NCBI RefSeq assembly: GCF_003987215.1
Contig: NZ_PIPW01000002.1
Location: forward strand, 310,001 to 374,000
DNA: 64,000 nt
Direction of reading: 5' to 3'
Source: Pseudidiomarina halophila
GTDB lineage: Bacteria; Pseudomonadota; Gammaproteobacteria; Enterobacterales; Alteromonadaceae
Of the stretch, positions 3,862-60,730 are shown one piece after another. How positions within the stretch are numbered: position 1 is the first letter of the stretch; every line of letters begins with the position of its first letter. Made by a program: the position numbers and the translations under genes. The notes beneath the pieces were generated by a model. That model did no database searches. It worked only from the letters and a program-made list of their open reading frames with translations, and was not told the origin of the DNA.

Positions 3862-5393
3862 TCGTCGAGGGTAACTATAGGTTTGCCGGTCATCTCTTTG
3901 GGTTGTGGTAACCCCAGCAGGTGCAGCATGGTCGGGGCAACATCAGACAAAACCCCGCCATCGCGGGCTGTTGCCTGACGGCCTACATAAATGAACGGCA
4001 CCAGTTCGCTGGTGTGTGCAGTATGTGACTGCCCGGTCTGATGGTCTTCCATCTGCTCTGCATTGCCATGATCAGCTGTAATTAAACACTCTCCATTGAC
4101 CTTGCGCAAGGCATCAACGACCCGGCCGACGGAACGATCAACGGCCTCAATCGCTTGCACTGCAGCGTCAAAATTTCCGGTATGACCGACCATGTCACCA
4201 TTGGGATAATTGCAAATGATGACATCATGCGCACCGCTTTCAATGGCTGCGACCAGCTTATCGGTGAGCTCTTCACTGCTCATCTCGGGCTGTAAGTCGT
4301 AGGTGGCAACCTGCGGCGAAGGCACAAGTACGCGGGTTTCTCCGGGAAACTCCTGCTCGCGGCCGCCACTGAAAAAGAAGGTGACATGGGCATACTTTTC
4401 CGTCTCGGAGATACGTAACTGGGTATAATCCTGCTTACCCAGCCATTCGCCCAGTACGTTATCCAGACTTTCCGGCGGAAAGGCTACTGTACTGTTGATA
4501 TCTTTGGCGTATTCGGTGAGTGACACGTAGCTTGCTAACTCAGGTCGGCGCGCTGCTTTAAAGCCATCAAAGTCTTCAGTGACAAAGGCGTGGCTCAGTT
4601 GGCGTGCCCGGTCGGCGCGGAAATTCATAAAAATGACACTGTCACCATCCACCACTGGCGCGGCATCGGCAATGCGGGTCGGTTTCACGAACTCATCATT
4701 TTCGCCGCGCTCATAGGCTTGCGCTAAAGCTGCACCGGCACTGGGACTGGTGAAAGGGGCTTCACCATCAACGATGAGTTGCCAGGCTTGTTCAATGCGG
4801 TCCCAGCGTTTATCGCGATCCATGGCATAGTAACGCCCGCATAAACTGGCAAAACGGCCGACGCCAAGCTTACTGAACAGTTGTTCGAAGCGTTCAAGTG
4901 TCGGTTTTGCTGAGCGCGGTGGGGTATCGCGACCATCGAGGAAGCCATGCAGGTAAATACGTTTTGCACCGCGTTGCGCAGCAAGTTCCACCATCGCCAC
5001 CAGATGATCTTCGTGGCTGTGTACGCCGCCTGGCGACAATAATCCCATAATATGGACGGCGCCATTATTCGCATTGGCTTTATCCACCGCCTGGGTCAGC
5101 GCTTCATTAGTAAAGAAGTCGCCGTCGTGAATCGCTTTACTTATCCGCGTGAAATCCTGATAGACGACCCGACCAGCGCCCAGGTTGACGTGACCGACTT
5201 CGGAATTACCCATTTGACCATCAGGCAGACCCACCGACATACCAGAGCCATCGACTAAGGTGTGCGGGTAGTTTTCCCATAAGTTGTCCATGTTGGGCGT
5301 GTGCGCCGCCGCAATCGCATTGTCGTCTGTTGCTTCACGATGGCCCCAGCCATCTAAAATTAACAGCGCCAGGGGAGTATGTGGCTTTGCCAT
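3858..5393 (-). CDS. gpmI: 2,3-bisphosphoglycerate-independent phosphoglycerate mutase
   Basis: This enzyme interconverts 3- and 2-phosphoglycerate in glycolysis and gluconeogenesis using two manganese ions and a phosphoserine intermediate. The 511-residue length fits the family. LLILDGWG near the N-terminus and MGNSEVGH place the catalytic serine at residue 64; [11 protein letters not shown] and the metal site [11 protein letters not shown] near the C-terminus complete the alkaline-phosphatase-like core. It is the first gene of the gpmI-envC-yibQ operon and is divergent from yibN across about 170 bases. Confidence 0.98.
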
Positions 5394-5566
5394 TTCGCAT
5401 CCTCAACTTGGTTGTTTGGGTTGTCATTGATTCGTCTTTAGTTTATGCGATTTTACATCGCAACGCACCCGCTGTCGGTCGAAATGCCGCCAAATTTTAC
5501 TGGTATCTGGCGTTTCAGCAGGTATACTCTGGTGCTTGATTTTTTCAGCAGGAGTAGTGAGCAATC

Positions 5567-5995
5567 ATGGATCAAATCCTAGCCTTTGCAGCTGACCACT
5601 ATTTGATGAGTATCTTATGGGTGGTGTTGCTAATCGCGATCATCGTTTCTTATTTTCAGGCAGCCACCTCGAAGGTGAAAGCGCTGACGCCGCAAGAAGC
5701 AACGTTGCAGGTGAACCGTAACGATGGCGTATTTGTTGACACGCGGTCGATTGACGAATTCCGCAAGGGACACATCCATGGCGCAATCAATTTGCCTGCT
5801 GAGCGGATCCGGAAAAATGACACGGCTGCACTTGAGAAATATAAATCTGCCCCCATCGTGGTGGTATGTGCAACCGGCATGACCGCAAAATCAGTGGCAC
5901 AAGAGCTGACCAAAGCGGGCTATGAAAACGTTGCCTTATTACAAGGTGGAATCTCTGCCTGGCAGGGTGCAAGTTTTCCGCTCGTTAAAAAATAA
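5567..5995 (+). CDS. yibN: Membrane-anchored rhodanese-like protein YibN
   Basis: The 142-residue protein begins with a single transmembrane helix (about residues 10-30, YLMSILWVVLLIAIIVSYF). A rhodanese domain follows: FVDTRSIDEFRKGHIHGAINLP and the active-site loop VVVCATGMTAKS with the catalytic cysteine. Rhodaneses move sulfane sulfur; the physiological acceptor here is unknown. The position upstream of secB and gpsA matches the E. coli yibN-grxC-secB-gpsA region, with grxC missing. A sequence like TATACT at about 5522-5527 may be its -10 element. Confidence 0.92.
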   Translation: MDQILAFAADHYLMSILWVVLLIAIIVSYFQAATSKVKALTPQEATLQVNRNDGVFVDTRSIDEFRKGHIHGAINLPAERIRKNDTAALEKYKSAPIVVVCATGMTAKSVAQELTKAGYENVALLQGGISAWQGASFPLVKK

Positions 5996-52357: not shown

Positions 52358-52852
52358 CTAGATGGATTCGGATTTGGTTCTTTGGTAACAAATAGCGGTG
52401 ATGTACCAGACATGAGTGCCGGTCGGCGTCTGAACTTTAACTTCATCGTCAACCTGCTTGCCAATGGCAGCCCGGGCCATAGGTGCATCAATTGAAATCA
52501 CGCGTTTGTCATCGTAAATTTCATCAGGACCGACGATAGTGAACTGCTTTTCATCGCCGTCATCATTTTCGATGGTAACCGTAGCGCCGAAAAATACTTT
52601 GCCTTCTTGCGACGGTGCGTAATCTACAATTTTTAACGCTTCCAGGCGTTTCCGTAAAAAGCGGATGCGCCGGTCAATCTGGCGTAGCTTTTGCTTATTG
52701 TACTTATAATCAGCATTTTCTGAGCGGTCACCGAGACTTGCGGCCCAGGTAACTTTTTCTGTGGTCTCGCGGCGCTCGACCCGCCATAAGTGATCGAGCT
52801 CCGACTGTAACTGGAAATAACCTTTGCGGCTAATTAGATTGGTTCGCGCCAT
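52358..52852 (-). CDS. greB: Transcription elongation factor GreB
   Basis: GreB rescues backtracked RNA polymerase by stimulating transcript cleavage. The 164-residue protein has an N-terminal coiled coil (residues about 1-75, including SLGDRSENADYKYNKQKLRQ with the acidic tip ENADY) and a C-terminal FKBP-like domain (VFFGATVTIENDDGDEKQF). The start MARTNLISRKGYFQLQSELD and length fit GreB better than GreA. In E. coli it is a neighbour of ompR; here five genes lie between. Confidence 0.96.
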   Translation of the reverse strand: MARTNLISRKGYFQLQSELDHLWRVERRETTEKVTWAASLGDRSENADYKYNKQKLRQIDRRIRFLRKRLEALKIVDYAPSQEGKVFFGATVTIENDDGDEKQFTIVGPDEIYDDKRVISIDAPMARAAIGKQVDDEVKVQTPTGTHVWYITAICYQRTKSESI

Positions 52853-52892
52853 GGTTGATTTAATCTTGGGGGCCAGACGCGAATGTTAGCAT

Positions 52893-53414
52893 TTATTCTT
52901 TACCGTGCCCAAGCCGGGCAAAGTGTCGAATAGCACCCAGCACGTGCAGTGCCAGCAGAGTACCAAGAACCGGTACAGCAAGGGTTTTGTGAACGGTCTC
53001 GGCTGTTTCATGCAGGGTCTCGAGTTCGCCGCTTAAAGGTGATGGCACAGTGAACAATCCAAACACAGGGATCCCTTCACCTTCGGTAAATAAGTAGGTC
53101 GGTCCGCTTAGCACCAGCCCCAGCAGAGTTAGCAATAACGCCACATGCACGATGCGGCTAAGTACCCGTTCCCAGGGCTGCTGATGAGCCGGTGCTTGGG
53201 CGAATCCTTCAAAAATACGAACTCCAACGCGCCAGAACACAAATAAAGCGGTCAGAAAGCCAAAGCTAAAGTGTAACGGCATAATGTAGTTTTCGTTTGC
53301 ATCGGTCGGTGCGTGATTACCGACGAGTCCTAGGGTCAGCATAATCGTGACCAGAATAACAGTTATCCAATGATTGATAATGCTATGTGTGCTGTAACGA
53401 GTTGCGGTTTTCAT
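52893..53414 (-). CDS. Cytochrome b561 family protein
   Basis: The 173-residue membrane protein has four helices and the prokaryotic cytochrome b561 features: TRYSTHSIINHWITVILVTI near the start, LHFSFGFLTALFVFWR, and two histidines in ETVHKTLAVPVLGTLLALHV near the end. These histidines would ligate two hemes b. It probably moves electrons from quinol; in E. coli CybB is a superoxide:ubiquinone oxidoreductase. It is divergent from the acyl-CoA dehydrogenase gene, and an FNR-like palindrome lies in the shared gap. Confidence 0.9.
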   Translation of the reverse strand: MKTATRYSTHSIINHWITVILVTIMLTLGLVGNHAPTDANENYIMPLHFSFGFLTALFVFWRVGVRIFEGFAQAPAHQQPWERVLSRIVHVALLLTLLGLVLSGPTYLFTEGEGIPVFGLFTVPSPLSGELETLHETAETVHKTLAVPVLGTLLALHVLGAIRHFARLGHGKE

Positions 53415-53522
53415 AACGACGTCCTTTGCGTTCGCGCAGTGTTTTCGTAAGTTTAACCATGGTCTAATTTTTAAATTAAGCCAAACTTAACTTAGACTTT
53501 TAGTCCAATACTCACTATCTTG

Positions 53523-53536
53523 TTGACATATATCAA
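53523..53536. promoter_or_regulatory. FNR/CRP-family palindrome between cytochrome b561 and the acyl-CoA dehydrogenase operon
   Basis: TTGAC, ATAT and ATCAA match the FNR consensus TTGAT-N4-ATCAA at nine of ten arm positions; GTTGA/TCAAC extends the symmetry. It lies 37 bases upstream of the dehydrogenase start and 108 bases upstream of cytochrome b561. TTGACA within it could instead be a -35, but no matching -10 lies 15-19 bases downstream. Confidence 0.55.
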
Positions 53537-53573
53537 CTGGTCAGATGAGCTGAGAGTTAAATGAGGTGAGCAC

Positions 53574-55241
53574 ATGACAGATTGGCAGCAAGCAGAGCGT
53601 TTCCTGGCAACGACCCACCAGGTCGAGAATCAGCCACCAGCACTGGAAAATTATAATTTATTCACGCAAGACGTTGCACTGCAGGAGGCGCTTAAACGTG
53701 AAGGTGCTGAATGGGCTAAGGCTTCGGTCCATGTTATGGGTGAGCTGGCCGGGCGTGCTGAGACTATTCGACTAGGCTTTCAGGCGAATGCCAATAAGCC
53801 GCAATTTGAGCCACAGGACCGCTTTGGCCACCGCGTTGATTATGTAGATTACCATGATGCCTATCACCAGTTGATGACACTTGCCACGGAACATGGCTTA
53901 CACGCGTCTCCGTGGGCGGATCCAAAGGCTGGTGCTCATGTCGCGCGTGCCGCGAAGTATTACTTACATACTCAGGTTGAAGCTGCCCACGGTTGCCCTA
54001 TCACAATGACTTTTGCGGCAGTTCCTGCGCTGCAGCACCAGCCAGATCTGGCGCAGTACTGGATCCCTAAGATTTTACACAACAGCTACGACCCAAGAAA
54101 CGTACCTGACACTGAAAAGCAAGCAGTGACCATTGGTATGGCTATGACGGAGAAGCAGGGCGGCTCGGACGTTCGCGCGAATACCACCCGTGCTTACCCG
54201 GTGGCAAAAGAAGGGCCCGGGCAGGTGTATGAGTTGGTTGGGCATAAGTGGTTCGTATCGGCACCTATGTGTGATGCATTTCTGGTGCTGGCGCAAACAA
54301 AAGCAGGCCTGAGTTGTTTCCTGTTACCACGTTGGCGTCCCGATGGCAGTAAAAATCCACTGCAGATCCTGCGCCTGAAAGACAAAATGGGTAATGTCGC
54401 CAACGCGTCCAGTGAAGCCGAGTTACGCGGAGCAATGGCATGGATGGTTGGTGAAGAAGGCCGCGGGGTACGGACCATCATTGAGATGGTGGCTATGACC
54501 CGCTATGACTGCATGATCGGCTCGGCGGCCGGGATGCGTCAGGCCACAGTGCAGGCGCTGCATCATTGTCAGCATCGCGCGGCATTCGGCGCGCGACTCA
54601 TTGACCAACCTTTAATGCAAAATGTACTTGCCGATCTGGCTATTGAAAGCGAAGCAGCGATGACGTTGACGATGCGCATGGCACGTGCGATGGACAGCCA
54701 GCAGGATGAACACGAGCGTATGCTGGCACGGATTGCGGTGGCGGCCGGCAAATACTGGATCTGCAAACGTACTCCGGAACATGCCTATGAAGCGATGGAA
54801 GTCATCGGTGGTAGCGGCGTGATGGAAAACTGTATTATGCCGCGGCTGTATCGCGAAGCGCCGATAAACGCGATTTGGGAAGGAAGTGGTAATGTGCAAT
54901 GCCTGGATGTGTTACGCGCTGTCCAAAAGCAGCCCGAGTGCTTCGCCGCTTTAATGACCGAAGTCAAGCGTGCCGCGGGCAGCCATAAGCAACTTGATGC
55001 CGCTATAGCGGCGTTACCCAAGCGTTTGGAACAAGCGCAGGAACAGCCTTTCTTCGCCCGGCAATTGGTCGAATTGATCGCGCGCACATTGCAGGGAGCG
55101 CTATTACAACAACATGCGCCCAATGAAGTGGCAGATGCGTTCTGTAACTCGCGCTTGGGCGCAAATGAGCATTTGGGGTATGGTAGATTAACTGACGCAG
55201 CAACGGCGAAACAGATCCTGTCACGGGCCTGGCCAAAGTGA
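53574..55241 (+). CDS. AidB-like acyl-CoA dehydrogenase
   Basis: The 555-residue flavoprotein resembles E. coli AidB along its length: VEAAHGCPITMTFAAVPALQ, the FAD-binding IGMAMTEKQGGSDVRANTTR, VGHKWFVSAPMCDAFLVLAQ and EVIGGSGVMENC. AINAIWEGSGNVQCLDVLR-type residues (NAIWEGSGNVQCLDVLRAV) follow. AidB belongs to the alkylation response, binds DNA and is also induced by anaerobiosis and acetate; its natural substrate is unclear. TGAGGTGAGCAC precedes the ATG. It is the first gene of a four-gene operon (45-, 14- and -19-base spacings) reaching to the PAS-GGDEF gene. An FNR-like site lies just upstream. Confidence 0.88.
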   Translation: MTDWQQAERFLATTHQVENQPPALENYNLFTQDVALQEALKREGAEWAKASVHVMGELAGRAETIRLGFQANANKPQFEPQDRFGHRVDYVDYHDAYHQLMTLATEHGLHASPWADPKAGAHVARAAKYYLHTQVEAAHGCPITMTFAAVPALQHQPDLAQYWIPKILHNSYDPRNVPDTEKQAVTIGMAMTEKQGGSDVRANTTRAYPVAKEGPGQVYELVGHKWFVSAPMCDAFLVLAQTKAGLSCFLLPRWRPDGSKNPLQILRLKDKMGNVANASSEAELRGAMAWMVGEEGRGVRTIIEMVAMTRYDCMIGSAAGMRQATVQALHHCQHRAAFGARLIDQPLMQNVLADLAIESEAAMTLTMRMARAMDSQQDEHERMLARIAVAAGKYWICKRTPEHAYEAMEVIGGSGVMENCIMPRLYREAPINAIWEGSGNVQCLDVLRAVQKQPECFAALMTEVKRAAGSHKQLDAAIAALPKRLEQAQEQPFFARQLVELIARTLQGALLQQHAPNEVADAFCNSRLGANEHLGYGRLTDAATAKQILSRAWPK

Positions 55242-55286
55242 AGAACAGCCACCTTTAGGCGAACGCGGTGAGGAGAAGACGAAACG

Positions 55287-56768
55287 ATGACGGTTTATCA
55301 AATGCTGGCGCGTAATGCGCGTAAATACCCGGATCAGCTGGCAATCAGCGACGATAAGCAGGAGTTGTCCTGGGCGCAGCTCGCTGACCAGGTCGAGCAG
55401 CTTGCCGCATGGCTACAGCAGGAATACGGCGTAAGGGCGGGCGACCGGGTTGCCTTAGTGATCCCTAACAGCATTGCGTTTGTGGTCGGATTTTTTGCAA
55501 TTCAACGGCTGGATGCGATTGCGGTTCCTATTAATGTTCGTCTTACCACACCAGAGCTCGAATATATTCTCGGCGATGCAGAAGCAGAGTTAGTACTTAC
55601 TAGCAAGATGACGGATGCGGCACTCAAGCCTCTGGTCGAACAAGGTTTAGCTGCGCTATGGCTGGATGATCTTAGTGTAAGTGCAGATGCTGCTACCGAT
55701 GGATTGCAGGAGCCGGCTGCTGATACCTCCAGTCCCTGCATTTTACTGTACACCTCGGGAACTACGGGACGGCCAAAAGGAGTACTGTTCCAGCAATCAG
55801 CTATTCATTCGGTCGCCACCATGATTGCTCTTGAAATGGCTATGACACCACAGAGTAAATTGCTGCATTTAATGCCCTTTACCCATTCAGCACCGCTCAA
55901 TTTATTTCTGCTGGCCGGTACTCTGGTCGGTGCTAGCCACGTGGTCGCGCCTACCTTTAGTCCGGATTTACTGCTGCAATTGGTGCCAAAACACCAGGTG
56001 ACTCACTTTTTTGGCGCGCCCGTTGCGTACTTATTGACCGCGCAACAGTCTGCCATAAAGACCACGGATTTAAGCAGTGTCAGCCACTGGATCTATGGTG
56101 GCGCAGCGATGTCGACCGAACATACGAAATTAGTCCAGCAGGCGTTTCGCTCCGACCAATTTTACTGTGTGTACGGACTTACCGAAGCCGGCCCCTCAGG
56201 CACCTTGTTATTACCCCATGAGCATGCGACAAAAGCCGGCTCGGTGGGACGCCGTGCGGCTTTTAACACCGAAGTTCGGTTGCGTACAGAAACCGGAACT
56301 GAGCCGCGTATTGGTGAGCCGGGAGAAGTAGAGATTGCCGGCGACGGCATGATGCAGTGTTACTGGCAAAACGCAGCGGCCACGGCGGAGACCTTTACTG
56401 CCGATGGCTGGCTAAAAACCGGCGATGTAGCGGTGCGTGATGAAGATGGCTTCTATTGGATAAAAGATCGCAAAAAAGACATTATCATTGCCGGTGGGGT
56501 AAATATTTATCCCCGCGAAATTGAAGATGCATTGTCGGAACATCCTGCAGTACTTGAGGCTGCGGTCGTAGGTGTGCCCCATAAAGATTGGGGAGAATCG
56601 GTAAAGGTTTTTGTGGTTTTACGCGACAAGCTGGACGATGCCCAGCAAACTCTTGCTGAGTTTTTACAGCAACGGCTTGCCGACTACAAACTACCGCGGT
56701 TTTATGAAATTATCGACGAGTTGCCCCGCAACGCCAGCGGCAAGGTGCTTAAGCATCAGTTACGTTAA
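55287..56768 (+). CDS. AMP-forming acyl-CoA synthetase / acid-CoA ligase
   Basis: The 493-residue adenylate-forming enzyme has the P-loop-like motif LLYTSGTTGRPKGVLF (residues about 152-167), the adenine-binding FYCVYGLTEAGPSGT, the hinge and AMP-ribose region LKTGDVAVRDEDGFYWIKDR, KDIIIAGGVNIYPREIE and the catalytic lysine in NASGKVLKHQLR. It activates a carboxylic acid, probably a fatty acid, to its CoA thioester. It follows the AidB-like dehydrogenase and precedes the RsbQ-like hydrolase by 14 bases. Thus acyl activation, dehydrogenation and a hydrolase-linked sensor are co-transcribed. Confidence 0.9.
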   Translation: MTVYQMLARNARKYPDQLAISDDKQELSWAQLADQVEQLAAWLQQEYGVRAGDRVALVIPNSIAFVVGFFAIQRLDAIAVPINVRLTTPELEYILGDAEAELVLTSKMTDAALKPLVEQGLAALWLDDLSVSADAATDGLQEPAADTSSPCILLYTSGTTGRPKGVLFQQSAIHSVATMIALEMAMTPQSKLLHLMPFTHSAPLNLFLLAGTLVGASHVVAPTFSPDLLLQLVPKHQVTHFFGAPVAYLLTAQQSAIKTTDLSSVSHWIYGGAAMSTEHTKLVQQAFRSDQFYCVYGLTEAGPSGTLLLPHEHATKAGSVGRRAAFNTEVRLRTETGTEPRIGEPGEVEIAGDGMMQCYWQNAAATAETFTADGWLKTGDVAVRDEDGFYWIKDRKKDIIIAGGVNIYPREIEDALSEHPAVLEAAVVGVPHKDWGESVKVFVVLRDKLDDAQQTLAEFLQQRLADYKLPRFYEIIDELPRNASGKVLKHQLR

Positions 56769-56782
56769 TTCTGGAGTTAGTA

Positions 56783-57598
56783 ATGAGCGAAACCGATTTA
56801 CAAATCATTTCCCGGAATCATGTACAGGAATTTGGCGAGGGCGATGAAACCATTGTCTTGTGCCATGGTTTTGGTTGTGATCAACAGATCTGGTTGCCGG
56901 TAATCGCACATTTGGGGTCCCGTCATCGGGTGATTACTTTTGATTTTGTTGGGTGCGGGCGTTCAGACTTTGCTGCGTACAGTATTGAGCGTTACCAAAC
57001 GCTCAAAGGTTACGTACAGGATTTGCTCGAGGTGCTTGATGCTTTAGGTTCTCCCAAGGTCACCTTAGTGGGACACTCGGTTGGTGGTTTAATTGGGTTT
57101 CTGGCCGCGATTCAACGACCGGAGTTGTTTCGACAGATTATCGCCATTGGACCATCGCCTCGATATTTAGATGATCCGCCGGAGTATGAGGGTGGGTTTA
57201 CTGCAGAAGATATTGGTCAGTTGCTGGCGATGATGGAACGGAACCACTTCGAATGGGCTGGCTATCTGGCACCTATTGTCATGAAAAATGCTCATCGGCC
57301 AGAGTTAGCAGAACGCCTGAAAGAGAGCTTCGCCAACTCTGATCCAAAGATTTCACGACGCTTTGCCGAAGCAACGTTCTACTGTGACCATCGCGAAGAA
57401 TTAAAACATGTTCCAGTTCCGGTGAAGCTGCTTTATTGTGAGCAAGACGTCATTGTGCCTACTGAGGTCATCGCTTTTATCGCTGATCATTTGCCTGATT
57501 GTGAATCGATTCAGCTAAATGCGGCAGGGCATTACCCCCACATGAGCCATCCTGAGCAGGTTGCAGGTACCATAAACCAATGTCTGAACAAGCATTAA
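56783..57598 (+). CDS. RsbQ-like alpha/beta hydrolase
   Basis: The 271-residue protein closely follows Bacillus subtilis RsbQ as I recall it: ISRNHVQEFGEG, HGFGCDQQIW, VITFDFVGCGRSD, YQTLKGYVQDLLEVLDALG, GPSPRYLDDPPEYEGGF and GHYPHMSHPEQ. The triad is S99 (LVGHSVGGLIG), D222 (CEQDVIVP) and H250, offset by three from RsbQ S96/D219/H247. RsbQ is needed to activate RsbP, a PAS-PP2C phosphatase, in energy stress, presumably by supplying a ligand to its PAS domain. Plant karrikin/strigolactone receptors share this fold. The next gene overlaps by 19 bases and encodes an RsbP-like PAS domain, so the pair is a sensor module. Confidence 0.92.
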   Translation: MSETDLQIISRNHVQEFGEGDETIVLCHGFGCDQQIWLPVIAHLGSRHRVITFDFVGCGRSDFAAYSIERYQTLKGYVQDLLEVLDALGSPKVTLVGHSVGGLIGFLAAIQRPELFRQIIAIGPSPRYLDDPPEYEGGFTAEDIGQLLAMMERNHFEWAGYLAPIVMKNAHRPELAERLKESFANSDPKISRRFAEATFYCDHREELKHVPVPVKLLYCEQDVIVPTEVIAFIADHLPDCESIQLNAAGHYPHMSHPEQVAGTINQCLNKH

Positions 57599-58566
57599 CC
57601 GGCTGGATTGACCGCAGCCCCGTAGCTGCACTTATAGTCGATGCCAGAAGCCAGGTTGTTGCGGCAAACGTAACGGTGGTTGAGTTGCTCGAGTCTTCCG
57701 CTGAAGACATCATGAAGCAACCTTTTGTGCAACTGTTGTCACGTTCGGGTCGAATGTTCTACCTGGGACATATCCTGCCATCTTTGCAACAACACGCGGC
57801 GGTTGATGAAATCTATTTACGGCTTCGAACAAAAGCCGGGCAGGAAATTCCGGTATTACTCAACGCGACCTATCATAATACTGGGGGCGTCGATTACTAT
57901 TATTTCGCAATGATGCCGATGCAACGGCGGAACATCCTTGAAGACCAACTGGTTGAAGCTAAGCAAGAAGCGGAGCACGCGTTGGCAGCAGAGCGTGAGG
58001 CACTGGCTGAGTTAGAACGCGCTAAGCTTGAACTGGAAAAACAACAAAGCGAATTAAAGCGCCTTAATACCCGGCTGGAACATCTGGCGACCACAGATCC
58101 CCTGACTAAACTTGCCAACCGGCGTGCCTTTGAAGCCCGCCTTGAAAACAATTTATCACTTGTTCGGCGGGACAGCATGGGGTTCAGCCTGTTGAGTCTG
58201 GATTTGGATCATTTCAAAGACATCAACGACCGTTATGGGCACGATACCGGAGATAAAGTGCTGGTAGCTATTGGCAGCTTATTGGCATCCATGTTCCGCA
58301 CAGCTGACTTAGCCGCTCGCACCGGTGGCGAAGAATTTGCGGTCATCCTGTCTGATGCAGATCTTAGCGTGGCGTTGGGTATTGCCGAGCGTTTGCGCGG
58401 GTCCATAGAAGCGTTAGAGTTTGACGACTTCAGGGTCACCGCAAGCATAGGGGTGACGACCGCTCAATCTGAAGATACCCGGGAAGACCTGTTGCGGCGT
58501 GCCGATCAGGCTTTGTACAAGGCAAAGCGCGCGAGCCGTAACTGCGTTAAGTATTTGACCGGTTAA
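57580..58566 (+). CDS. PAS-coiled coil-GGDEF diguanylate cyclase with RsbP-like sensor
   Basis: The 328-residue soluble protein has an N-terminal PAS domain (residues about 5-113). The PAS region MFYLGHILPSLQQHAAVDEI, EIPVLLNATYHN and MMPMQRRN, and the following coiled coil (118-168, EDQLVEAKQEAEHAL), resemble RsbP of Bacillus subtilis. The RsbP PP2C domain is replaced by a GGDEF domain: LDLDHFKDINDRYGHDTGD, GGEEF at 249-253 and an RTAD inhibitory site at 240-243. Active c-di-GMP synthesis with feedback control is predicted. It overlaps the RsbQ-like gene by 19 bases. The ligand is unknown. Confidence 0.92.
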   Translation: MSEQALTGWIDRSPVAALIVDARSQVVAANVTVVELLESSAEDIMKQPFVQLLSRSGRMFYLGHILPSLQQHAAVDEIYLRLRTKAGQEIPVLLNATYHNTGGVDYYYFAMMPMQRRNILEDQLVEAKQEAEHALAAEREALAELERAKLELEKQQSELKRLNTRLEHLATTDPLTKLANRRAFEARLENNLSLVRRDSMGFSLLSLDLDHFKDINDRYGHDTGDKVLVAIGSLLASMFRTADLAARTGGEEFAVILSDADLSVALGIAERLRGSIEALEFDDFRVTASIGVTTAQSEDTREDLLRRADQALYKAKRASRNCVKYLTG

Positions 58567-58609
58567 AACATTTGGATACAAAAAGCAGACCGATACGGAC
58601 CGCGGTTCG

Positions 58610-58638
58610 TTGGCAAAGTGGCACGCTTCTTTTATAGT
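58610..58638 (+). promoter_or_regulatory. Putative sigma70-type promoter of ompR-envZ
   Basis: TTGGCA (58610-58615) and TATAGT (58633-58638) are spaced by 17 bases, 36 bases before the ompR start. This gives ompR-envZ a promoter separate from the PAS-GGDEF operon. Confidence 0.6.
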
Positions 58639-58673
58639 TGCAACATTACTATGGCCATAGGAGCAGCTCAGGC

Positions 58674-59402
58674 ATGGCGCAAGAGACCTTTAAAATATTA
58701 GTTGTAGATGACGATGCACGGTTACGCAGCTTATTGGAGCGCTACCTGACGGAACAGGGATTTTATGTGCGATCAGCGGCCGAAAGTGAGCAGATGGACC
58801 GCCTGCTAGAACGCGAGAATTTTCATCTCATGGTACTGGATCTAATGCTTCCGGGTGAGGATGGCCTCTCCATTTGTAAGCGTTTGCGCCAGGCAAATAA
58901 TGACATTCCTATTGTGATGTTGACCGCTAAAGGTGATGAAGTGGATCGCATTATCGGGCTCGAGCTAGGAGCCGATGATTATCTGGCGAAGCCATTTAAC
59001 CCGCGGGAGTTATTGGCGCGGATTCGCGCAGTGTTGCGCCGACGCGGAAAATCTATTCCCGGTGCGCCATCAGCGGACGATGAAGAAATCAAATTTGGTG
59101 AATTCCGGCTGAACTTAGGCACCCGGGAGATGTTTCGTGGCGATGAGCCGATGCCCCTGACCAGTGGTGAATTCGCTGTACTGAAAGCGCTGGTGACCCA
59201 CCCGCGCCAACCCATGTCACGTGACAAGTTGATGAATCAGGCGCGCGGCCGCGATTACAGTGCCCTTGAGCGTAGCATTGATGTTCAGGTTTCACGGTTG
59301 CGCCGGATGCTTGAAGTTGATGCAGCTAATCCGCGGTACATTCAAACAGTGTGGGGTCTGGGTTACGTATTTGTGCCCGACGGCAGCAAAAAAGGCAGCT
59401 GA
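58674..59402 (+). CDS. ompR: Two-component response regulator OmpR
   Basis: OmpR is the DNA-binding partner of EnvZ and controls porins and other envelope genes in response to osmolarity and pH. The ATG at 58674 (TAGGAGCAGC upstream) gives 242 residues; the frame is open further up, but the family start [14 protein letters not shown] is here. The receiver domain has acidic residues 12-14 and the phospho-acceptor D56 ([13 protein letters not shown]), the conserved threonine in VMLTAKG and the lysine in [12 protein letters not shown]-terminal winged helix follows ([30 protein letters not shown]). Its stop overlaps the envZ start by one base. Confidence 0.97.
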
Positions 59403-60730
59403 TGCGCATTCTCCCGCGTTCTGCCTTTGCCCGCACGGTCGCATTAATCGCGCTGCTGTTGTTAATCAACCAGATTGTTTCTTACATCATGGTCGGTGTA
59501 TACGTGGTAAAGCCGACCATGCAGCAAATCAGCTCTGTTGTTTCCAAGCAGGTACAAGGCATTATCGTGCTTGATCAATGGTTGAGCAGCCATGAAATGT
59601 CTGCAGTTGAGAAACGCTCGCTGGCTGAACGTTACACACGAGCTGTTGGCATTGATGGATTCTCCGAGCAAGAAGCTATCGCGAACGGACTTGATCAGGC
59701 CACCACCTATAATTTCCTCTCAAATCAAATGAGCCAGCAGCTCGCGGCGACCACCGAAGTACGGATCTCGCAGCAGGACGTTTACTATGTCTGGATCCGT
59801 ACCGAATCTCTCGCTGGCTACTGGTTACGCGTAGAGCTTGAAACCTTTGATGAAGCACGATTTTCACCATTGTTGTTCTATCTTATTTTGATCGGTGCGC
59901 TCAGTGTTTTAGGCGGTATGCTTTTTACCAACTGGCAAAACAAACCATTAAAATCCCTGGAAGCAGCGGCGTTGCAAGTGGGACGGGGTGATTATCCTGA
60001 TGCGTTGCCGGAACGCGGTTCTACCGAAGTTATCGCAGTGACCAAGGCGTTCAACCAAATGGCCCAAGGGGTACGGCAGTTGGAGCAGGATCGGGTGTTG
60101 CTAATGGCCGGTGTTTCGCACGATTTGCGCACGCCGCTTACGCGAATAAGACTGGCAACAGAGATGATGCCGCCCAGCGAAGATTCTTTAGCGGAAGGCA
60201 TCATCAGTGACATAGACGATATGAATGCCATCATCGATCAGTTTATCGATTATGTGCGGCTTGATAGTCTGGCAGATAGCGACTGTGAGAACCTGAATTA
60301 TTTAGTGGAAGATGTGGTCGGGCATGTTCCGGAGAGTTGGCATGCGCAAATTAAGGTAGCATACGGCGATGTGCCGAAAATACCTGTGCGAGCTATCTCG
60401 ATTAAACGGGTACTGCTAAATCTGCTCGAGAACGCTGAACGCTACGGTGGTGGGCGCATTGTTATTGAAACCGGGTATAACCGCAGTCTGGAGCGTGTTT
60501 GGGTAACTGTCAGTGACAACGGTGAGGGAATTCCTGCCGGTCAAATTGAACATGTGTTGCAGCCGTTTACTCAGGGCGACAAGGCACGGGCATCGAAGGG
60601 GTCAGGATTAGGGCTGGCGATTGTTAAACGCATCGTAGAACGCCATGGCGGACGGATTTCTTTTGGTCGTAGTCAAAAACTGGGCGGCTTAGCAGTCCGC
60701 TTCGAACTGCCAAGCGCCAAACCCGAGTGA
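59402..60730 (+). CDS. envZ: Osmosensor histidine kinase EnvZ
   Basis: This inner-membrane sensor kinase/phosphatase acts on OmpR. The ATG at 59402, in a TGATG junction with ompR, gives 442 residues. Features in order are TM1 ([19 protein letters not shown]), a periplasmic domain (about 36-155), TM2 ([19 protein letters not shown]), HAMP ([20 protein letters not shown]), the H box with H240 ([20 protein letters not shown]), and the ATPase domain with N box [20 protein letters not shown] and [12 protein letters not shown]. It converges with sthA with a 1-base gap. Confidence 0.97.

Follow-up and report, generated by a model that had tools for sequence, protein, structure and literature searches.

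A probable Q-PAS hydrolase-diguanylate cyclase pair in Pseudidiomarina halophila, and linker lengths that step in heptads

In the 64,000-nt stretch of contig NZ_PIPW01000002.1 of Pseudidiomarina halophila analysed here (the window, whose coordinates are used below), two overlapping genes encode an RsbQ-type alpha/beta hydrolase and a protein in which an RsbP-type PAS domain is joined by a predicted coiled coil to a GGDEF diguanylate cyclase domain. The pair is probably a Q-PAS module, with the hydrolase serving as the dedicated signal-sensing partner of the PAS domain that drives the cyclase. As a gene arrangement it belongs to a published class that has been described since 2011; what is new here is that the linkers of Q-PAS proteins step in length by sevens, in one phase for the direct-linker cyclases and in one for the phosphatases measured, and in several phases for the kinases, most often that of the phosphatases.

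The founding description of the class, by Nadezhdin, Brody and Price (2011; PMC3183031), lists 45 pairs of RsbQ and RsbP-type PAS whose outputs are phosphatases, histidine kinases or diguanylate cyclases. Because cyclase outputs are among them, the principal idea of an earlier, sequence-only reading of this DNA, a general sensory cassette with swapped outputs, was already in print: it holds as regards the hydrolase, the PAS domain, the cyclase and the variety of outputs, and falls as a novelty. The passages of that paper on Bacillus subtilis report that RsbQ is required to activate RsbP, that contact between the two was demonstrated by two-hybrid and pull-down assays, that substitutions in the catalytic triad of RsbQ are null, and that RsbP F55A loses both RsbQ binding and signalling; two models of RsbQ action are left open (PMC3183031). 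According to the relevant passages of a 2025 eLife paper, which takes up the same idea again, an AlphaFold2 model of two RsbP and two RsbQ places RsbQ between PAS and linker, and an exchangeable toolkit is proposed (PMC12143880).

Both open reading frames lie where they were first placed, at 56783..57598 (hydrolase, 271 residues) and 57580..58566 (PAS-GGDEF protein, 328 residues), on the + strand, with 19 nt (57580..57598) in common that are read in different frames. This overlap had been taken to imply a fixed stoichiometry, an implication that does not hold, because the gene junction differs among relatives, being variously an overlap, a short gap, divergent, fused or reversed. In a PDB search the best match of the hydrolase is B. 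subtilis RsbQ (1wom, E=1.9e-83, 283.5 bits), to which it is 49% identical, followed by Oleispira Olei00960 (207.2 bits), the best D14 (177.6 bits) and then the KAI2 receptors, so that by this search it is not closer to the KAI2/D14 clade than to RsbQ, and the check for a grouping with generic haloperoxidase-like or BioH enzymes in place of RsbQ did not refute the RsbQ-type reading. The triad S99 (within GHSVG), D222 and H250 is present and is invariant in a 14-sequence alignment that includes B. subtilis RsbQ, which bears out the identification of the hydrolase as RsbQ-type.

The PAS core occupies residues 14-117 of the second protein (57619..57930, +) and ends in R117. In Pfam it falls below cut-off (PAS_9, E=1.1e-4, 22.9 bits against 27), and a PAS-family profile matches no solved relative at E<=0.01, so that the PAS pocket is not to be judged from structure. 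A profile made from 15 phosphatase-type RsbP-PAS domains, all of them from Bacillota or Streptomyces and none from a cyclase, was scanned against the window's own genome; it gives the window PAS 64.5 bits, and the sole other places it finds in that genome score 18.1 and 13.5. The proposed likeness to RsbP is thereby confirmed, no other PAS domain of this genome being as close to RsbP-PAS, and the PAS plus most of the linker from a close RsbP relative aligns with the window protein almost without gaps. At the nine class positions of RsbP (C10, L13, L48, Q53, F55, C56, Y59, E72 and P86; PMC3183031) the window carries V, L, L, R, F, Y, H, E and P, and fits at eight of the nine: five class residues are those of B. 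subtilis, and R53, Y56 and H59 are common substitutes (R/K in 103/137, F/Y in 97/137 and Y/H in 127/137), the fit at these three being judged from the alignment made for this analysis and not from the published consensus figure. RsbP F55, Y59 and P62 correspond to window F60, H64 and P67, which lie within a predicted helix of residues 55-72, the F-alpha region of RsbP, that bears R58, F60, Y61, H64 and P67. With a simple pattern, the DIT motif was found after the PAS in none of 137 aligned sequences.

The GGDEF domain starts at D173 (58096..58563, +; Pfam E=4.7e-45) and has, as the sequence-only reading had it, the cyclase signature GGEEF at 249-253 and the RxxD inhibitory site RTAD at 240-243, five residues ahead of the signature; judged by signature and inhibitory site, the protein would be an active, product-inhibited diguanylate cyclase. 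Its AlphaFold2 model, with a mean predicted local distance difference test score of 95.4 and a predicted template modelling score of 0.69, has a single unbroken linker helix, residues 114-171 (57919..58092, +). From R117 to D173 there are 56 residues, or eight heptads, and ahead of the DxLT motif the linker carries Leu at -14, -11, -7 and -4, Asn at -10 and Ala at -3. The modelled helix and the heptad pattern of Leu together point to a coiled coil.

A set of 147 RsbQ-type loci (given L numbers; genomes have G numbers) was drawn from searches of the family, genus, order and phylum, from a contig scan (at least 591 relatives, of which the best 80 were kept) and from nine plasmid records out of 67. 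The tree excludes the weak paralogues L002-L006, duplicate entries for one locus, and the G149 and G163 modules, for which the genus search yielded no locus. Output labels came from local profiles and were corrected by hand for L144 (kinase) and for L090, L109 and L114 (GGDEF); the frames of L109 and L114 are broken or ambiguous, and L090 has an intact PAS-GGDEF frame at 4805-5809. An RsbP-type PAS adjoins the RsbQ-type gene in 141 of the 147 loci, one more lies at a contig edge, and the named records span eight phyla. The output is GGDEF in 76 loci, a histidine kinase in 44 and a PPM phosphatase in 16; in three (L022, L038 and L044) the PAS has no output domain, and in three the output was not assigned (L040 at a contig end, L048 with a broken frame, and L071).

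On a quick, unrooted RsbQ tree, in which 54 of 144 inner branches have support below 80, the output type switches at least nine times among the three main classes, and the starred branches alone require at least three changes for GGDEF, four for kinase and two for phosphatase. Because the tree is unrooted, it displays repeated output changes and not which output came first, and the direction of rewiring put forward earlier is not readable from it. The window groups with its genus and then, in a nine-row starred set, with Zobellella L036, Marinobacter L080, L008 and L009 (long branches being flagged among the last three), and falls outside the larger clade formed by cyclases of the family to which it belongs.

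Linker length was measured from the terminal Arg of the PAS (Arg in 135 of 137, His in 2) to an output landmark, namely the D of DxLT in cyclases, GGD in phosphatases and the phospho-His in kinases, the landmarks being located by pattern and some of them by eye. The PAS alignment was made without L090, L109, L114 and L048, and hence includes 73 of the 76 cyclases. The landmark was found in all 73; two, at 147 and 273, have intervening extra domains, and the 71 with direct linkers are, without exception, at multiples of seven: 21 (1), 28 (31), 49 (1) and 56 (38). The length of 56 is shared by the window, its genus, Zobellella and 32 Bacillota, and all but one of the 31 proteins at 28 belong to organisms that share the window's family, order or class. 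The phosphatases, 15 of 16 being measurable, fall at 65, 79 or 93, each of them 7n+2. Eleven of the 44 kinases have intervening extra domains, and 19 of the 33 direct ones are again at 7n+2 (30, 37, 44, 51, 58 or 65).

The rule was written down before 27 further loci were examined, 19 of which had a PAS match. Among these, the cyclases were at 7n in five of five cases, the phosphatases at 7n+2 in three of three and the direct kinases at the predicted 7n+2 in eight of nine (the exception, L217, is returned to below), with two more kinases having extra domains. Of the eight without a PAS match, L212 is a cyclase in reversed gene order whose linker, counted by eye, is 28, L196 and L211 show no PAS within the stretch fetched, and L200-L204 match the hydrolase more weakly. 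As controls, a distance internal to the PAS and the distance from DxLT to the protein end take all residues modulo 7, and that from DxLT to GGDEF is almost constant (76 in 68 of 76). The sequences are akin, and distinct lengths therefore weigh more than counts: these are 21, 28, 49 and 56 for cyclases, the six values given above for HisKA-type kinases, and 58, 65, 79 and 93 for phosphatases. If lengths were independent, the chance of one phase per class would be 7 to the power -11, a figure that sets the HDFNN, Bacteroidota and L008 kinases apart post hoc, the kinase subclasses having been split after the data were seen. Since the tree requires no more than 3, 9 and 2 changes of length as a minimum (cyclase, HisKA-type and phosphatase, first set), the true evidence for the phase rule is more modest than that figure.

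Within the 71 direct cyclase linkers, counting back from DxLT, position -7 is Leu in 71/71, position -14 is Leu or Ile in 71/71 and position -3 is Ala, Ser or Thr in 71/71, and a strong hydrophobic residue occupies -4 in 97% and -11 in 52%. By residue pattern, then, the cyclase linkers show the axxdexx 'slippery' motif that is known from the DgcR register switch (PMC8041772). The same paper, in the part that concerns linkers, notes that discretised lengths have been reported for PAS- and LOV-linked cyclases too (PMC8041772), and among phytochrome cyclases 54% step by seven, with other lengths common, in the account drawn on here (PMC9587094). Within the listings and passages that it covered, a literature search found no report of one input module holding a fixed phase with unrelated outputs.

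Presence and absence within the window's genus and family also bear on the pairing. Of 26 genomes of the genus, seven have the hydrolase, and the PAS-cyclase adjoins it in each. A profile of the whole PAS-cyclase finds GGDEF matches in at least 25 of the 26; among the matches listed, six cover the PAS, each of them from a genome with the hydrolase and none from the 19 without it, and in G149, listed by its GGDEF part only, a direct alignment spans residues 14-323 next to the hydrolase gene. The two genes thus seem to be gained or lost together in the genus. Across 147 genomes of the family, the hydrolase is found in 28 (E<=1e-40) and a PAS match in 28 (E<=1e-6), with 23 in common. The five hydrolase-only genomes do carry an adjoining PAS gene (L008, L010, L028, L031 and L032), and the five PAS-only genomes give at most 42 bits in open frames of 869-1607 codons, although score alone fails to separate them, because some of the shared genomes score no better. 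Genome G000 has at least 39 matches to the PAS-GGDEF profile (E<=1e-5), the listed ones mostly to the GGDEF part, a large cyclic di-GMP (c-di-GMP) network for a 2.6-Mb genome.

The census also turned up variants in gene structure and location. In G002, of the same family, RsbQ, PAS and GGDEF are fused in one 585-residue open frame (L030, 577-2328, -) with a short linker from hydrolase to PAS, while a further module of this genome, L035, is unfused; the passages of PMC3183031 that deal with fusions do not mention such a natural fusion. In Paenibacillus L038 (4812-5303, +) and L044 (4830-5303, +), RsbQ is followed by a PAS-coil gene that lacks an output and has the same end point in both; the gene is under constraint (0.061 nonsynonymous and 0.369 synonymous changes per site), and its product may be a decoy or work on an output in trans. 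Paenibacillus turpanensis L098 has the kinase output label in a Gram-positive; kinase outputs are listed solely in Gram-negatives in the corresponding part of PMC3183031. Gene order is divergent in L101 and reversed in L212. CheW/CheA were considered as partners in the former, a Bacillus locus, and were ruled out, the divergent PAS-phosphatase gene lying on the other side. Plasmids carry the module too: among 72,556 plasmid records, 67 have an RsbQ relative (E<=1e-40), of which 24 are typed as conjugative, and the nine records analysed first comprise six with a kinase, one with a cyclase and two with no RsbP-type PAS neighbour. Examples are Sphingobium pSES220 (L179), Phaeobacter (L181) and Paracoccus (L175).

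A mechanism for the window module can be proposed in four steps, of which docking, the triad requirement and activation of the PAS protein are carried over by analogy from B. subtilis. RsbQ with its intact triad would bind or process a small molecule, by analogy with its B. subtilis counterpart; it would then dock on the PAS around the F-alpha helix and the first turns of the linker, as B. subtilis F55A suggests, the equivalent F60 being kept. Docking would shift the register of a parallel coiled coil that the linker makes with its 56 residues, or eight heptads, a step suggested by heptad stepping and the axxdexx pattern. Two GGDEF domains would thereby meet and produce c-di-GMP, with inhibition at the RTAD site as a limit, which is established for the cyclase family and expected here. 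From these sequence features we infer an RsbQ-driven coiled-coil register switch.

A number of observations weigh against the Q-PAS reading and its switch. Position 10 of the window PAS is Val, whereas 99/137 have Cys, and the G163 hydrolase, with matches split over two reading frames, looks like a broken copy. No RsbP-type PAS neighbours the hydrolase in 5/147 loci (L080, L141, L145, L176 and L180). A mean-field direct coupling analysis of 137 pairs (effective number 121, underpowered) placed 4 of its 30 strongest couplings at PAS positions 48-62, close to the number expected by chance, the strongest couplings being scattered. The kinases have no single phase: 11 from Bacteroidota are all at 61 (7n+5), L008 is at 67 (7n+4), and HDFNN-type kinases lie at 64 and 71 (7n+1) in the first set, with L217, of the same type, at 64 among the later loci. 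Heptad stepping is, moreover, known for Rec-, PAS-, LOV- and phytochrome-linked cyclases, and supports a coil switch generally, not RsbQ specifically. Finally, no measurement on any cyclase member was found in the literature search, within the portions of the papers that it covered.

The best-placed alternative is that RsbQ makes a ligand, converting a precursor and handing the product to the PAS pocket, so that the PAS is the sensor and docking is delivery (Model 1 in the relevant passages of PMC3183031). We regard this as possible, if on the unlikely side. The invariance of the triad in the 14 aligned sequences speaks for it, as do the null triad substitutions of B. subtilis RsbQ. KAI2 and D14, however, are relatives that need their triad and yet work as receptors. 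Nor had any ligand been found with RsbP-PAS, according to the same passages (PMC3183031), and as these leave two models open, the earlier proposal that the hydrolase makes or delivers a PAS ligand is not supported.

A second alternative keeps the Q-PAS pairing and reverses its sign, the cyclase being on by default and switched off by RsbQ binding. The sign is not readable from sequence, and an axxdexx linker permits two registers; against this, RsbQ is needed for RsbP activation in B. subtilis, as that part of the published work has it (PMC3183031), and we consider the reversed sign doubtful.

The neighbourhood of the pair suggests a third possibility. Directly upstream, at 53574..56768 (+), lie genes for an AidB-like acyl-CoA dehydrogenase and an AMP-binding, acyl-CoA ligase-like protein, and the latter ends 14 nt ahead of the hydrolase start on the same strand, which would suit an operon whose dehydrogenase and ligase make or consume the signal of a fatty-acyl sensor. 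Twelve loci of relatives (L182-L193) were compared with the window over the interval between greB and ompR (window 52358-58680), where the window and five of the relatives' loci (those of G149, G150, G152, G131 and G163) carry the module; in G163 it follows an insert of about 10 kb that holds GGDEF-like and response-regulator-like matches, and in G151 it is located elsewhere. The closest relative, G167 (GreB 91%, OmpR 97%), has the order greB, dehydrogenase, ligase, ompR and no module. Within the interval, G070 has nothing between the two genes, G167, G157 and G156 have dehydrogenase and ligase without the module, G149, G150, G152 and G131 have the module only, and the window has both. At this locus the acyl-CoA genes are thus not tied to the module and, being separable from it in relatives, are not counted in it; a fatty-acyl sensor of this kind is very improbable. 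On the other side, genes for an OmpR-like regulator and an EnvZ-like kinase (58638..60730, +), which border the module locus in the genus, are flank only.

That hydrolase and PAS-cyclase are neighbours by operon accident, with no joint function, is scarcely credible, since the five loci without a PAS neighbour, and L196 and L211 among the later loci with no PAS within the fetched stretch, stand against pairing in 141 of 147 loci across eight phyla, joint occurrence in the genus, the natural in-frame fusion L030 and the two-hybrid and pull-down contact reported in the B. subtilis passages (PMC3183031). The hydrolases of L080 (2312-3124, Marinobacter maroccanus), L141, L145, L196 and L211 may themselves be orphan receptors with other partners.

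Taking the Q-PAS reading as the probable one, a broader proposal is, in our judgement, evenly balanced: that Q-PAS is a universal plug, one hydrolase-PAS receptor with one register switch for cyclases, HisKA kinases and PPM phosphatases, in which outputs are swapped and the coil is changed by whole heptads, with a fixed phase for each output counted from the PAS-end Arg (GGDEF 7n, HisKA-type 7n+2, PPM 7n+2). The even heptad steps of the linker hint at the route of the signal. The signal read by RsbQ was not known as of 2011, in the passages that touch on it (PMC3183031), and no later report of its identity was found in the literature listings searched. If the proposal is true, that signal could be read with any output by means of chimeras built in the right phase; the heptad rule predicts beforehand which chimeras would signal, so that one receptor could be tried with each of the three outputs. 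For such work the two-gene cyclase version offers a simple c-di-GMP readout, and the close relative without the module a natural negative control.

Among known systems, the nearest are the Q-PAS cyclase modules, which in their published description (PMC3183031, in the passages concerned) likewise have an RsbQ gene just upstream, an N-terminal RsbP-type PAS, a coil and GGDEF, and no DIT; the window differs in having Val for Cys at position 10, and its eight heptads are the linker of 38/71 cyclases, against four heptads in 31/71. With the coiled-coil register-switch cyclases, DgcR (PMC8041772) and the phytochrome cyclases (PMC9587094), the module shares lengths that step by seven and axxdexx before DxLT; as these systems are described there, their input is phosphorylation or light, whereas here it would be a separate hydrolase protein. 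The RsbQ-RsbP pair of the B. subtilis sigma-B energy-stress pathway is alike in its hydrolase, at the identity given above, and in the nearly gap-free alignment of PAS and linker from an RsbP relative, and differs in its output, a PPM phosphatase in place of GGDEF. The RsbP phosphatase acts on RsbV. The plant karrikin and strigolactone receptors KAI2 and D14 match the hydrolase more weakly than RsbQ does (177.6 bits at best against 283.5). These related hydrolases share its type of triad and serve as signal receptors, and their partners are F-box and repressor proteins, not PAS.

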